Below, piece after piece: positions 1 through 6,190 of a stretch of DNA of 6,190 nt. The DNA comes from Chloroflexota bacterium. Lineage in GTDB: Bacteria > Chloroflexota > UBA6077 > CF-72. How positions within the stretch are numbered: position 1 is the first letter of the stretch; the number at the start of each line of letters is the position of its first letter. Where the stretch lies: NCBI GenBank assembly GCA_019247135.1, contig JAFAPL010000652.1, positions 1 through 6,190 on the forward strand, written 5' to 3'. The notes beneath the pieces are model-generated. The model ran no database searches. It worked only from the letters and a program-made list of their open reading frames with translations, and was not told where the DNA came from. A program made the position numbers and the translations under genes.

Positions 1-109
1 GCGTCACGCGAGGCGTCACGCGAGCCTGCGGCACACAAAGAGCGTGACACAGAGCGTCACGTGGAGGCCGAAAGCGTCACGTAGGGCGTCACGTGAGGCG
101 TCACGTGAC
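1..109. repeat. Seven-copy 12-bp repeat, consensus GCGTCACGTGAG
   Basis: Units start at 1, 13, 42, 54, 74, 86 and 98. Units 1-2 are identical (GCGTCACGCGAG). Unit 3 (GCGTGACACAGA) is degenerate. Units 4-7 begin GCGTCACGT. Pairs or triplets are directly adjacent, separated by gaps of 17 bases (25-41) and 8 bases (66-73). Several units hold the palindrome CACGTG, extending to a perfect 12-base palindrome CGTCACGTGACG at 99-110. The array touches the left edge, so it may continue outside the window. It ends about 40 bases before the -35 box of the sigma-like gene, so it may be a regulatory array or a simple tandem expansion. The same bases can be read as an Ala-Ser-Arg-rich peptide in the downstream gene's frame, but that reading is probably not translated. 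Confidence 0.8.
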
Positions 110-149
110 GAGTGTGGTGCGGCTTACAGCCAGGCTGTTGCGACCCTCA

Positions 150-178
150 CTGACCCACCCGCAACACAAGCCTACGCT
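150..178 (+). promoter_or_regulatory. Sigma-70-type promoter of the sigma-like gene
   Basis: A -35-like CTGACC (150-155) is separated by exactly 17 bases from a -10-like TACGCT (173-178). Transcription would start near 185, giving a leader of about 27 bases before the ATG at 212. This was read by eye, with no measured start site. Confidence 0.45.
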
Positions 179-197
179 GCGCCCAAGATGCTGATGC

Positions 198-203
198 GAG
201 GGA
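198..203 (+). promoter_or_regulatory. Ribosome binding site GAGGGA
   Basis: GAGGGA lies 8 bases before the ATG at 212. It favours that start over the GTG at 44 and the ATGs at 188 and 194, none of which has such a site at the right distance. It is the only clear Shine-Dalgarno sequence found at a gene start in this window. Confidence 0.5.
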
Positions 204-211
204 CCGGGCGT

Positions 212-844
212 ATGAACGGGCAATTCGAGGAGCCGCTGCAGAGCGACCTTGACCTCATCGATGGCTACGAACTGCTGAGACGCGCCATCTGCCAGCGCGA
301 CCAGCCAGCCTGGACAGCGGCCATGACACGCTATCGCGTGGTCGTCATCGCGGCAATTCGCCGCCACCCTGCCTGGGTCATCAATACCGAAAGCGAAGAC
401 TACTGGGTCAATCGCGCCTTCGAGCGCTTCTGGTGCGCGGTCACGCCGGACCGCCTGTGTTTGTTCCCGTCACTCGGCCCGCTGCTGCGGTATTTGCAGA
501 TGTGCACCCACAGCGTCGTCATCGACGAGATGCGCAGTCGACGGCGCAACCAGCACGAACTGCTCTCGGAGACCACGAACGGGCTGCCACACAACAAGGG
601 CGCCGAGGATGCGATGGTCGCCCGTCTGAGCGCGAGCGAGCTGTGGAACGCGGTCGCCTCCGAGTTGCACGACGAGCCTGAACGACTCGTGGCCAGCCTG
701 TCGCTCCTGCGCGGCATGAAGCCCGCCCAGGTGCAAGCGCTGCACCCCGAGCACTTTGTCGACGCTGCCGACGTCTATCGCGTCAAACGCAACGTGCTCG
801 AACGGCTTCGACGGAACAGCGCCGTTCGGCGCTTCCGCGACTGA
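212..844 (+). CDS. Sigma-70-like (ECF-type) RNA polymerase sigma factor
   Basis: This 210-residue protein is predicted to bind core RNA polymerase and direct it to specific promoters. Residues about 30-112 look like sigma region 2: a helical stretch, the segment ERFWCAVTPDRLCLFPSL (71-88), then YLQMCTHSVVIDEMRSRRR (94-112), which resembles the conserved core- and -10-binding helices. Residues about 140-200 look like region 4, with a helix-turn-helix and a final basic segment VYRVKRNVLERLRR (188-201). A polar linker joins the two. Length fits a two-domain ECF-type factor. I recognise the arrangement from Chloroflexota sigma-like proteins that are often annotated only as hypothetical. The frame stays open back to a GTG at 44 through the repeat array, but promoter and ribosome-site placement favour ATG 212. 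No anti-sigma gene is adjacent; the next gene downstream is convergent. The target promoters are unknown. Confidence 0.72.
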   Translation: MNGQFEEPLQSDLDLIDGYELLRRAICQRDQPAWTAAMTRYRVVVIAAIRRHPAWVINTESEDYWVNRAFERFWCAVTPDRLCLFPSLGPLLRYLQMCTHSVVIDEMRSRRRNQHELLSETTNGLPHNKGAEDAMVARLSASELWNAVASELHDEPERLVASLSLLRGMKPAQVQALHPEHFVDAADVYRVKRNVLERLRRNSAVRRFRD

Positions 845-1013: not shown

Positions 1014-1229
1014 CTAGCCGCCACCCCCGCGCAACTGATCCCGCAACACCTCGGCCGCTTGTCCGAATGTGCTGCCTGGCTCGAGGCCGAGAATGTCGGC
1101 GTACTCCTGCGGCAGCGGATCCGCACACCCCTCCACCTGCTTCACCAGCTCCATTGACCCTGCGTCGGGCTCGCCGTCCAGCAGCTCGAGAAACGCGTTG
1201 CGGACCGTCGCGCTGACCTGCTTCGTCAC
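1014..1229 (-). CDS. 71-residue acidic protein of unknown function, coupled to PAC2 gene
   Basis: I do not recognise a family. The protein is small and soluble-looking, with no signal peptide or membrane segment. It is acidic through its middle (LELLDGEPDAGSMELVKQVE, residues 14-33) and ends in QLRGGGG. There is one Cys (about residue 35). The GTG start overlaps the TGA stop of the PAC2-family gene in a GTGA arrangement, which implies translational coupling. Codons end mostly in G or C, as in the neighbouring genes, which supports a real gene despite its size. Sharing a transcript with the PAC2 protein suggests a partner or accessory role, but nothing in the sequence gives a specific function. 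Confidence 0.6.
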   Translation of the reverse strand: MTKQVSATVRNAFLELLDGEPDAGSMELVKQVEGCADPLPQEYADILGLEPGSTFGQAAEVLRDQLRGGGG

Positions 1230-2140
1230 TGCTGGTCGCCACGCAGACCGCGGAGGAAGTCTTCGAGGTCACGCAACACGGCCTCGCTGCTCGGCAGCTC
1301 GCCACCCGGCTCAGCTTCTTCGCGAACTGACGGGATGTCCTCGGGCTCCTCATCTTCGCGCAGCGCGTCGATGCGTTCCTTCAAGCTCGGACGTTGGCTG
1401 AGAAATTCGTCGATTTGATCGGCAAGCTCGGCGCCACCTCGTTCCAGCGCGCCAAGCGGCAGCGAGACCCCGGTCAGAGCATCGACCACTCGAAGCATCG
1501 CCGCGGCGGTCCACGGATGCACCATGCCCGGCACGTAACTTGGCGTGGACGCAGTCAGTCCCGCGCCCGGCAGACCGCGCTCAGCCGCGAGCGAGTGCAA
1601 CACCGTGGCGATGCCGGTCGGCCCCTCGTAGCGACTCATGCTGATGCGACGCTGCCGCAACGCTGCCCGGAACTGGCTATTCGTACCCCAGCCCCGCATC
1701 TGGACCCTCGCGCGATGGTGAACCGGCGCCAGGATCGCTCCGAGCGTGAGCAATGCCTGCGCTCCGAGCTGCTGGAACGCCTCAATCAGGGCGTCGGAAA
1801 ACGTGCGCCAGCGAAGGTTCGGCTCCGGGCCGACGAATAGCACGAGGTCACGCGTCGACTCCGTGCGCGCGACGTAGATCTCCGCGCGCGGCCAGGTGTG
1901 AATGCGTTGGCCCTCGGCGTTCAGCGAGGTGGTCGGACGCGTATCCGAGTACTGATAGAACTGCTCGGGATCCAGCTCGACGACCTTGCGAGCGCTGAAC
2001 TCGTCGATCACGTGCTCCAGCGCCGCCGTGCTTGCCGAGCCGGCGTTGATCCAGCCGCCGAAACCGGCCACCACGTACGGCTCACGCAGGCCCTGACTGC
2101 TCAGGTCCTCGAGAATTTGGCCAGCATCGGCGAGCGCCAC
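1226..2140 (-). CDS. PAC2 family protein (proteasome-assembly-chaperone-like)
   Basis: This 304-residue protein matches the bacterial/archaeal PAC2 family. Family signs are the N-terminal VVAGFGGWINAGSAS (23-37), GPEPNLRWRTF (104-114) followed by a helix, the strand/turn TLGAILAPVHHRARVQMRG (132-150), YEGPTGIATVLHSLA (171-185), and a conserved PSYVPGMVHPWTA block (200-212). The usual Pro-His-Thr-Arg-Pro turn appears here as VHHRARV, a small deviation. An acidic linker (about 261-280) leads to a C-terminal helical tail, LRDLEDFLRGLRG, similar to the tails of actinobacterial members. In eukaryotes PAC2 helps assemble proteasomes; the bacterial role is not established. The GTG start is the first usable one: a TGA lies in frame 11 codons upstream, and a -10 sequence lies 7 bases before it. 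It is the first gene of an operon with the 71-residue ORF. Confidence 0.88.
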   Translation of the reverse strand: MALADAGQILEDLSSQGLREPYVVAGFGGWINAGSASTAALEHVIDEFSARKVVELDPEQFYQYSDTRPTTSLNAEGQRIHTWPRAEIYVARTESTRDLVLFVGPEPNLRWRTFSDALIEAFQQLGAQALLTLGAILAPVHHRARVQMRGWGTNSQFRAALRQRRISMSRYEGPTGIATVLHSLAAERGLPGAGLTASTPSYVPGMVHPWTAAAMLRVVDALTGVSLPLGALERGGAELADQIDEFLSQRPSLKERIDALREDEEPEDIPSVREEAEPGGELPSSEAVLRDLEDFLRGLRGDQQ

Positions 2141-4675: not shown

Positions 4676-5446
4676 TCAGATGCCAGGTGATTTTCGCTCG
4701 GAAAATGCACGAGCGAGTGCGGCAAAGTTGTCGGCGTTCACGCTGGCTGAACCTGCCAGGACTCCGTCGATGCGCTCATCGGCGGCGATTTCTTGCACGT
4801 TCCGAGGACTGACCTGGCCGCCATAGATGACGCGAATGCTCTCCGCAAGCTCGCCACCTTGTAGATCGCGCACCGTATCACGAACGATCCCGCACATCTC
4901 GCCAACATACGACAGAGGCGGAGGCGCGACGCGCCCCATGGTCGTCCACACCGGCTCGTAGGCCACCACGAGCGATGACGAGACCTCCGCTTCCTCGAGC
5001 GCTGACTCCAGCTGAGCAGTCAGCACATATGCGCCACTGCCTTCGTCCAGTTGATCGGCGGTCTCGCCCACACACAGGATGGGGCGCAATCCGCGCTTCA
5101 ACGCGACAAGCATCTTCTGGCGCACAATAGCGTCCTTGTCGGCGAAAAGAATGCGCCGCTCGTACTGGCCGACGAGCACGTAGTTGCAAACATCCGCCAG
5201 CATGCGCGCGGAGACCTCGCCGGTGTAGGCGCCGCCGTCTTGTGTATGAATGTTCTGCGCGCCAACGCTGATCGAGCTCTGTGCAACCATTCGCCGTACG
5301 TCTACGATCCACGGAAACGGTGGGCAGACGACCAGCTCGATAGTGTTGAGATCCGCCACGCGCGGTAACAGCGCTTGCATGAGAGTGACAGCATCAGACA
5401 GCGTCGTATTCATTTTCCAGTTGCCCACGATCAGCGGAGTACGCAC
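4676..5446 (-). CDS. tpiA: Triosephosphate isomerase homologue with altered active site
   Basis: This 256-residue TIM barrel has the normal family length (about 250). Clear TIM features are GNWKMN (8-13, with Asn9 and Lys11), GAQNIH (62-67), GAYTGEVSARML (72-83), CVGET (125-129), AYEPVW (162-167, general base Glu164) and IYGG (207-210). The expected GHSERR reads GQYERR (93-98): the electrophilic His is Gln94 and the next Ser is Tyr95. Loop 6 reads TTMGRVA (168-174) in place of the usual A-I-G-T-G-K sequence. Loop 7 GGS is GGQ (Gln211), and the loop 8 Gly pair is Gly-Ser (232-233). Ordinary isomerase activity is therefore doubtful, and the symbol marks family only. The GTG start shares its G with the TAG stop of the upstream gene, so it is probably translated by coupling. 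No gap or pgk gene is nearby in the window. Confidence 0.85.
   Translation of the reverse strand: MRTPLIVGNWKMNTTLSDAVTLMQALLPRVADLNTIELVVCPPFPWIVDVRRMVAQSSISVGAQNIHTQDGGAYTGEVSARMLADVCNYVLVGQYERRILFADKDAIVRQKMLVALKRGLRPILCVGETADQLDEGSGAYVLTAQLESALEEAEVSSSLVVAYEPVWTTMGRVAPPPLSYVGEMCGIVRDTVRDLQGGELAESIRVIYGGQVSPRNVQEIAADERIDGVLAGSASVNADNFAALARAFSERKSPGI
4694..4716. other. GC-rich hairpin overlapping a second hairpin
   Basis: TCGCTCG (4694-4700) pairs with CGAGCGA (4710-4716) across a 9-base loop. A second perfect stem, ATTTTC (4690-4695) with GAAAAT (4701-4706), shares bases, so the two cannot form together. They lie in the last codons of the TIM-like gene, 55 bases past the stop of the convergent XRE gene. 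No U-tract follows on either strand. It may help end the XRE transcript, but this is weak. Confidence 0.25.
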
Positions 5447-6190
5447 TAGCGACGCGGTCCAGGCCACACATTCAGCGCTCGTTCGGCCAGACGACGAGAG
5501 CGTGCCTCGATTTCGCCGGCCCGCCAACATTCGATCTCCGCAAAGTCGCGCACCAGCTCGAGCCCGTAGCGTGTCATGCGCCGCAGCTCTTTCTTCCGTT
5601 CGGTAACGCCGAGGTCCGGCGCACGGCCACGCGGCACCCAGGTGAAGTTGCCCAGCCTGCCGACGACGGCCCAGTAGTCACGCTCGGACACCCCGAGCTC
5701 GTTCAGCCAGTCCTCGCGCGGCAGCAACGGCGTGATCAACTGCAACTCGAGTTGATCGAACGCAACGGGTCGTGCGTGCGGGTAGCTGTCCTCCAGGGCC
5801 TGGAATATGAGGTTCCTCTGATCCGGGTGGCTCCCGAAATACAGTGGATAGTGCACGGCATTTTCGAGCACCACTGCGTCGTCAGGCCATGCGATCTGGG
5901 AGGCTGAAAGTGCGTCAACAAATGCCGCTGCGCGATCGGCCGCGCTGACGACGGTATTGTAGATGCCGATGAGCAACTGGTTTTCGTCTATTTGCGGCGC
6001 GGACGTCAACAACCGGCGTACAAAAAATGACTCGACGCACACGAGCAACTGGCGCATCTGGTCGGCAGTCAGCGAGCCGGCGCGATAGTCCGCTTGCAAT
6101 CGGAGCAGCAGGGGTTCGAACGGGTGCACCACGGTCCGCGACCATGCTGTCAGACGCGCAAGCCGCTTGCGGACTCCGACGTCTGGTTCA
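5446..6190 (-). CDS. DUF262/DUF1524 (GmrSD-like) protein, C-terminal part, 5' end outside window
   Basis: The frame is open to the right edge with no stop, so the 247 visible residues are the C-terminal portion of a longer gene. Numbered from the edge, residues about 10-60 (RLARLTAW, then HPFEPLLLRL, then VESFFVRRLL) match the helical end of a DUF262 region with its typical 'ESFxVRR' helix. Residues about 145-246 match a DUF1524 region: ITPLLPREDW (152-161), LGNFTW (179-184), ERKKELRRM (197-205), and the family's ending pattern W...EI..R...LAERALNVWP (222-243). Members include GmrSD, SspE and BrxU, phage restriction factors in which DUF262 uses nucleotides and DUF1524 is an HNH nuclease. Here the usual Glu-His pair before the Pro is missing (LELQLITP), so the nuclease may be inactive. 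It is followed by the TIM-like gene with a 1-base overlap. Confidence 0.72.
   Translation of the reverse strand, partial: EPDVGVRKRLARLTAWSRTVVHPFEPLLLRLQADYRAGSLTADQMRQLLVCVESFFVRRLLTSAPQIDENQLLIGIYNTVVSAADRAAAFVDALSASQIAWPDDAVVLENAVHYPLYFGSHPDQRNLIFQALEDSYPHARPVAFDQLELQLITPLLPREDWLNELGVSERDYWAVVGRLGNFTWVPRGRAPDLGVTERKKELRRMTRYGLELVRDFAEIECWRAGEIEARSRRLAERALNVWPGPRR

Follow-up and report, generated by a model that had tools for sequence, protein, structure and literature searches.

The closest described relatives of the locus analysed here are found among triosephosphate isomerases (TIM, TpiA, PF00121) and DUF262 proteins. In the accessible part of a study of TIM, His95 is described as mediating proton transfer between the two oxygens, Ser96 as being kept in 98% of TIMs, and the E165D substitution alone as lowering kcat ~1500-fold (PMC12874384). 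L-erythrulose-1-phosphate isomerase (11ef) is a TIM homologue with another substrate, and its likeness to the protein described below lies in a sequence match only (130 bits). A DUF262 domain is combined with a DUF1524 domain in the GmrSD/BrxU type IV restriction enzymes, for which the available text of one source links DGQQR to NTP hydrolysis and an E/D-H-N-N motif to cleavage, both as predictions (PMC4619093). DUF262 is also found in the phosphorothioate-sensing proteins DndI/SspE, and the accessible part of a further report covers the DUF262 systems Menshen, Dazbog and PD-T4-2, which have no DUF1524 domain and for which that part names no TIM-fold partner, the partner of Menshen being a predicted OLD nuclease (PMC10952713).

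Here the analysis covered a 6,190-nucleotide stretch of Chloroflexota DNA (contig JAFAPL010000652.1; hereafter the window), in which a gene for a TIM-fold protein without the catalytic His overlaps the end of a gene for a DUF262 (GmrSD-type) protein. The features are as follows, codons and motifs having been read from the sequence unless a match or an alignment is named:

4676..5446, minus strand: GTG-initiated gene for a 256-aa TIM-fold paralogue that belongs to the QYERR clade, with a whole-length match to the Pfam TIM family (230 bits)
5422-5420, minus strand: Asn9 codon
5416-5414, minus strand: Lys11 codon
5162..5167, minus strand: Gln-Tyr replacing the catalytic His95-Ser96, CAG (Gln) at 5167-5165 and TAC (Tyr) at 5164-5162
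4955..4957, minus strand: Glu164 codon, the catalytic base position
4925..4945, minus strand: rewritten loop 6, TTMGRVA
4814..4816, minus strand: Gln in loop 7, a sublineage trait that co-varies with the loop-6 Arg
4748..4750, minus strand: loop-8 Ser, replacing the second Gly of the GG that binds phosphate
5446..6189, minus strand: 3' half of the DUF262 (GmrSD-type) gene, which runs off the window, 100% identical to P0225 over 247 residues
5737..5742, minus strand: Gln-Leu where the DUF1524/HNH site has Glu-His, the nuclease His being lost (from an alignment)
5444..5448, minus strand: TAGTG, in which the DUF262 stop and the GTG start of the TIM gene share one base

An earlier note on this DNA had described the altered pocket, and every codon and coordinate that it named (Gln, Tyr, TTMGRVA, loop-7 Gln and loop-8 Ser) was correct. 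It had also described the barrel, Asn9 and Lys11 as kept in the window protein, which agrees with the codons and with an AlphaFold2 model of the protein built with 85 clade sequences (pLDDT 91.2, pTM 0.91), in which the barrel is intact and whose best PDB match is Clostridium perfringens TIM, 4y8f (TM 0.89, 38% identity). The start of the gene is a choice, because the database twin of the protein, P0002, is annotated 7 residues longer.

The altered residues are shared by a conserved clade, from uncultured Chloroflexota, of at least 155 clustered proteins, a lower bound because the counts come from the matches listed. These comprise the 120 best database matches (including P0002, the window protein) and, from a further search, 35 matches not among them. 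Because P0001 and P0002 both represent the window protein, it enters counts over 121 rows twice and counts over 155 rows once. A one-off change, which had been considered, is ruled out by this sharing. Among the proteins listed, position 95 was Gln in 147, Thr in five, and Pro, Ala or Glu in one each, and His in none; a clade sharing GQYERR, as the earlier note had envisaged, therefore exists, although Gln95 is not strictly kept (8/155). Tyr occupied position 96 in 154 of the 155 aligned proteins listed (His in the other), and Thr-Thr in loop 6 and Glu97 were each present in 155/155. Where letters were available, Asn10 was found in 148/148 and Lys12 in 146/148 clade proteins, 7 rows being gapped. 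The catalytic base was Asp in 81 and Glu in 74 of the 155 listed, a carboxylate in all, so that the statement that Glu164 remains is right for the window protein but not across the clade. The second Gly of loop 8 was absent from all 155 listed (Thr 85, Ser 37, Ala 31, Val 1, Pro 1). In loop 7, Ser was commonest (104 of the 155 listed), followed by Gln (35), Pro (9), Ala (5), Thr (1) and His (1), which makes GGQ a trait of a sublineage and not of the whole clade. Over 121 rows, loop-6 Arg and loop-7 Gln occurred together in 33, Arg only in 2, Gln only in 2 and neither in 84, a co-variation which suggests that loops 6 and 7 still meet. All eight non-Gln replacements of His sit in rows with a Glu base and loop-7 Gln. 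The set of coordinated changes earlier proposed is accordingly clade-wide for His/Ser, loop 6 and loop 8, whereas the loop-7 change co-varies with loop 6.

Canonical TIM copies from the genomes, in comparison, had His and Glu in 110/110 aligned, and the 80 best genome relatives of the window TIM (35-45% identical) all had His, 79 as GHSERR and one as GHNERR. Loop 6 of the canonical copies reads AIGTG or close to it and is one residue longer than that of the clade. Columns distinguishing the clade from canonical TIM were concentrated in the catalytic-face loops, which hold 76 of the 256 residues and 16 of the 26 columns (p 0.0004). Set against TIM, the variant proteins keep the whole fold, Asn10, Lys12, Glu97, T-G-E of loop 3 and, mostly, YGG of loop 7, but have no His95, carry Tyr for Ser96, have a shortened and rewritten loop 6, lack the second Gly of loop 8, have either Glu or Asp at the base position, and are encoded after DUF262. 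The variant TIM of genome G150 (L117:107-1069) additionally contains, close to its N-terminus, ~60 inserted residues of low-complexity Gly/Pro/Ser/Thr sequence.

Clade members were detected at E 1e-90 in 2 of 400 Chloroflexota genomes (G166 and G150), no other genome reaching this value; both carriers belong to one class (29 genomes examined) and one family (4 genomes examined). A third genome of the family, G238, carries a variant copy with an internal deletion that falls under the cut-off, so other damaged copies may have been missed. A canonical GHSERR copy was found in all four family genomes (G166, G150, G238 and G230). The second, canonical tpiA for which the earlier note had proposed a search is thus present in each of the three related genomes that carry the variant, and this coexistence makes the variant a paralogue there. 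In G166 and G150, as judged by eye, the canonical gene follows pgk and precedes DprA-like and topoisomerase-like genes. The canonical TIM of G238 (L166) is normal to about residue 227, after which the family sequence is lost; this may be a frameshift, a broken gene or an assembly error.

An IQ-TREE phylogeny of 62 rows (14 variant, 30 Chloroflexota canonical and 18 others) gave the variant clade 100/100 support with a stem of 0.79. The clade fell outside the 30 Chloroflexota rows with support that is not decisive (89/83), and its nominal sister was one Acidobacteria row (90/66). An earlier FastTree analysis had placed L088 as sister and assigned 0.64 to the variant branch, and this sister was not kept in IQ-TREE. 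A recent copy of the host tpiA was also considered and rejected, since the canonical TIMs of G166, G150 and G230 group together and the variant clade stands apart (100/100). Between G166 and G150, NG86 gave a dN/dS of 0.10 in the variant TIM against 0.12 in the canonical one, with 0.13 in DUF262; these values are rough because dS exceeds 1 for both TIMs. Both the variant TIM and DUF262 are under purifying selection, the variant being about as constrained as the housekeeping TIM.

The overlapping DUF262 gene, which the earlier note had missed, says more about function than the pocket. The window ORF (6189-5446) has no Pfam match because only its 3' half lies inside the window; P0225 is a full DUF262 protein of 546 aa. 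The window half is 65% identical to P0122, the full-length protein encoded next to the variant TIM in G166, and P0122 matches GmrSD_N (DUF262, PF03235) with 128 bits. The PADLOC model Orf5 PDLC02693 matched P0122 over its length with 413 bits and the window half with 94 bits. The same junction was seen at L116, L117 and L150 (G166, G150 and G238), as an 8-base overlap if GTG starts are taken. DUF262 lies directly upstream, with stop and start overlapping, in 4/4 readable loci (the window, L116 of G166, L117+L151 of G150 and L150 of G238); the G150 pair lies on two contigs, L117 and L151, with an identical stretch of 147 bases at their ends. Overlapping genes are also frequent in compact operons whose products form no complex.

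Linkage was further assessed by counting TIM and DUF262 matches on contigs of exactly equal size, which shows a shared contig, not adjacency. An equal-size contig with a close DUF262 match was found for 32 of the 154 TIM matches listed (~1.6 by chance) and not for the other 122. Specifically, in the first list 26 of 119 TIM matches equalled one of 116 DUF262 matches, against a null mean of 1.2 and maximum of 6 in 2000 rounds with sizes jittered by up to 10%, rising to 22/42 for TIM contigs of at least 4 kb; among 35 further TIM matches, 6 matched (null 0.36, maximum 4), or 5/12 on contigs of at least 4 kb. P0090, one of 120 TIM rows, and 4 of 120 DUF262 rows had no contig size and were excluded. 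The test under-counts, as is seen from the pair in the window, which does not pass it (9497 vs 2939); many contigs are also short, and the comparison covered the best matches listed for either protein. Protein distances of TIM and DUF262 over 27 pairs (26 matched plus the window) were correlated with r 0.89 (permutation maximum 0.55), a result that vertical inheritance of any two genes would also produce. As a control, a TIM was found in 0/27 distant DUF262 loci (L123-L149; flanks of up to 1.5 kb per side), nor was one found in the 10 of these loci that were read more widely (L152-L161). In G181 (L168), 2.4 kb separate a distant DUF262 gene (L149) from a canonical GHSERR TIM on the opposite strand, a proximity that is probably due to chance; that DUF262 keeps Glu-His.

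The partner family was examined in 121 close DUF262 rows, namely P0122 and the 120 best database matches listed, a TIM neighbour not being shown for every row. DGQQR was present in 119/119 of the rows listed with letters there, and QR.YSW and FESLN.(K/R)GMPLTQ were nearly invariant. At the HNH histidine position, 118 close rows listed had Leu (112), Met (4), Val (1) or Phe (1) and none had His, while the Asn of GN(F/L)T was found in 117/118. Glu-His was kept, in comparison, in 21 of 24 distant Chloroflexota DUF262 relatives covering the HNH site, a count that leaves out L147 (truncated), P0241, G049 and G359; the HNH site of the G238 DUF262 is masked (X) and enters neither count. The three distant relatives also without the HNH Glu-His are L136, L138 and L141. 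P0241, the DUF262 protein of a Chloroflexota MAG and one of the 118, is 54% identical to P0122 and has Glu-Phe at this site, a possible intermediate in HNH loss.

The partner therefore resembles GmrSD/BrxU in its DUF262 domain with DGQQR, and differs in that the E/D-H-N-N motif of DUF1524 has no His, Glu-His being replaced by Gln-Leu, and in that its gene overlaps a TIM-fold gene. DNA cleavage by its HNH domain is unlikely. A model of the partner (pLDDT 85.9) had as best PDB match the DndBCDE-DndI entry 9jfl (TM 0.59, rmsd 8), with which it shares 16% identity and from whose DndI/SspE family the lost HNH His also sets it apart; the next structural match was BrxU, a weak one (TM 0.34-0.38).

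Taken together, these data favour a non-glycolytic, dedicated TIM-fold protein, probably translated together with the DUF262 (GmrSD-type) protein and acting jointly with it. The non-glycolytic reading follows from the absence of His in all 155 proteins listed and from the GHSERR copies elsewhere in the genomes, two of them next to pgk. Turnover as TIM is disfavoured by the cost of E165D, the role of His95 and the conservation of Ser96, as given in the accessible part of PMC12874384. The pair points to an undescribed two-protein system, in which the TIM-fold protein might use its conserved Lys, Asn and carboxylate to bind a nucleotide or a small phosphorylated molecule, the reshaped loop 6 would act as a lid over the ligand pocket, and the liganded state could control, or be controlled by, NTP hydrolysis in DUF262. 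Tyr96 and the loop-8 side chains may, on the other hand, fill the phosphate site, which would count against ligand binding. More tentatively, the TIM-fold protein could be a pseudoenzyme that, on sensing a phosphorylated metabolite, a nucleotide or a DNA-repair product, gates the NTPase of its nuclease-dead DUF262 partner within a regulatory or immune module; if this were true, a restriction-derived machine would have acquired a glycolytic enzyme fold as its sensor.

The alternative that survives best, which we rate as somewhat short of an even chance, is an antiphage or type-IV-restriction-like pair in which the TIM-fold protein would take on the sensor or effector role of the HNH domain. The G166 partner's match to PADLOC Orf5 and the structural matches to the phosphorothioation-sensing DndBCDE-DndI entry and then to BrxU are in its favour, as are the DUF262 systems without DUF1524 in the accessible text of PMC10952713; an antiphage function is suggested through the partner's relatives only. 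The surroundings do not point the same way. The window flanks encode a short-chain dehydrogenase, an HTH regulator, a methyltransferase and a PAC2 protein, and those of G166, G238 and G150 a luciferase-like monooxygenase, an amidohydrolase, a molybdopterin-binding dehydrogenase and a folate enzyme, together with a thymidylate kinase, an HD-domain protein and a glycoside-hydrolase-like protein. No clear defence gene was seen among the few flanking genes scanned in the window, G166, G150 and G238, where PADLOC matches were weak and generic, and neighbours of this metabolic, regulatory or hydrolase-like type make a chromosomal regulatory role equally possible. Inheritance also looks vertical, with three of the four genomes of one family carrying the variant and no others in 400 at E 1e-90, and the 18 matches to two peptide patterns in viral contigs included no relative.

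Slightly less likely is a new enzyme acting on another phosphorylated substrate, with Glu/Asp164 as base and Tyr96 as a new acid or hydrogen-bond donor in place of His. The retention of the base carboxylate, of Tyr96 and of Lys among the proteins listed (155/155, 154/155 and 146/148) would fit such a protein, as would a dN/dS resembling that of canonical TIM, and the available part of PMC12874384 describes Ser96 changes that can suppress the E165D and H95N defects, so that the site tolerates re-tuning. Glu and Asp are nevertheless interchanged across the clade in spite of the kcat cost of this exchange in TIM (same source, same part), Gln95 is replaceable (8/155 listed), and the neighbours scanned form no consistent pathway.

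It is very improbable that the protein is an ordinary triosephosphate isomerase or a weak back-up copy. TIM His95 mutants retain residual activity, and the variant has the TIM fold, a whole-length TIM match and the kept Asn, Lys and carboxylate, but His is found in 0/155 and an Asp base in 81/155 of the proteins listed, G166, G150 and G238 also hold a canonical TIM, and the gene sits after DUF262 and not after pgk. A decaying gene or sequencing error, for which the internal deletion in the G238 copy might be cited, is scarcely credible and already contradicted by changes common to at least 155 clusters and a dN/dS of 0.10; the earlier note, too, had argued against random decay.

A search of the open-access literature, most subscription papers lying outside its scope, found no pairing of DUF262 with a TIM-fold protein, nothing on H95Q and nothing related to TIM in antiphage defence; as judged by title or abstract start, it also held nothing relevant on TIM pseudoenzymes. 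A TIM-fold gene without the catalytic His that overlaps a DUF262 gene from a family without the nuclease His is unusual, and the pair possibly represents a new way of controlling DUF262 NTPases. The clade is also a natural experiment in how a TIM active site can change once His95 is gone. For metabolic annotation, it matters that at least 155 clustered proteins are very unlikely to be triosephosphate isomerase, the name that their sources give to many of them.

Elsewhere in the window, an ORF at 2-844 (plus strand) has no Pfam domain and a sigma-factor match in NCBIfam (25 bits) that is far under the cut-off. A 71-aa ORF of no Pfam family at 1014-1229 (minus strand) lies just downstream of the gene at 1226-2140 (minus strand), which encodes the PAC2-family protein (155 bits).
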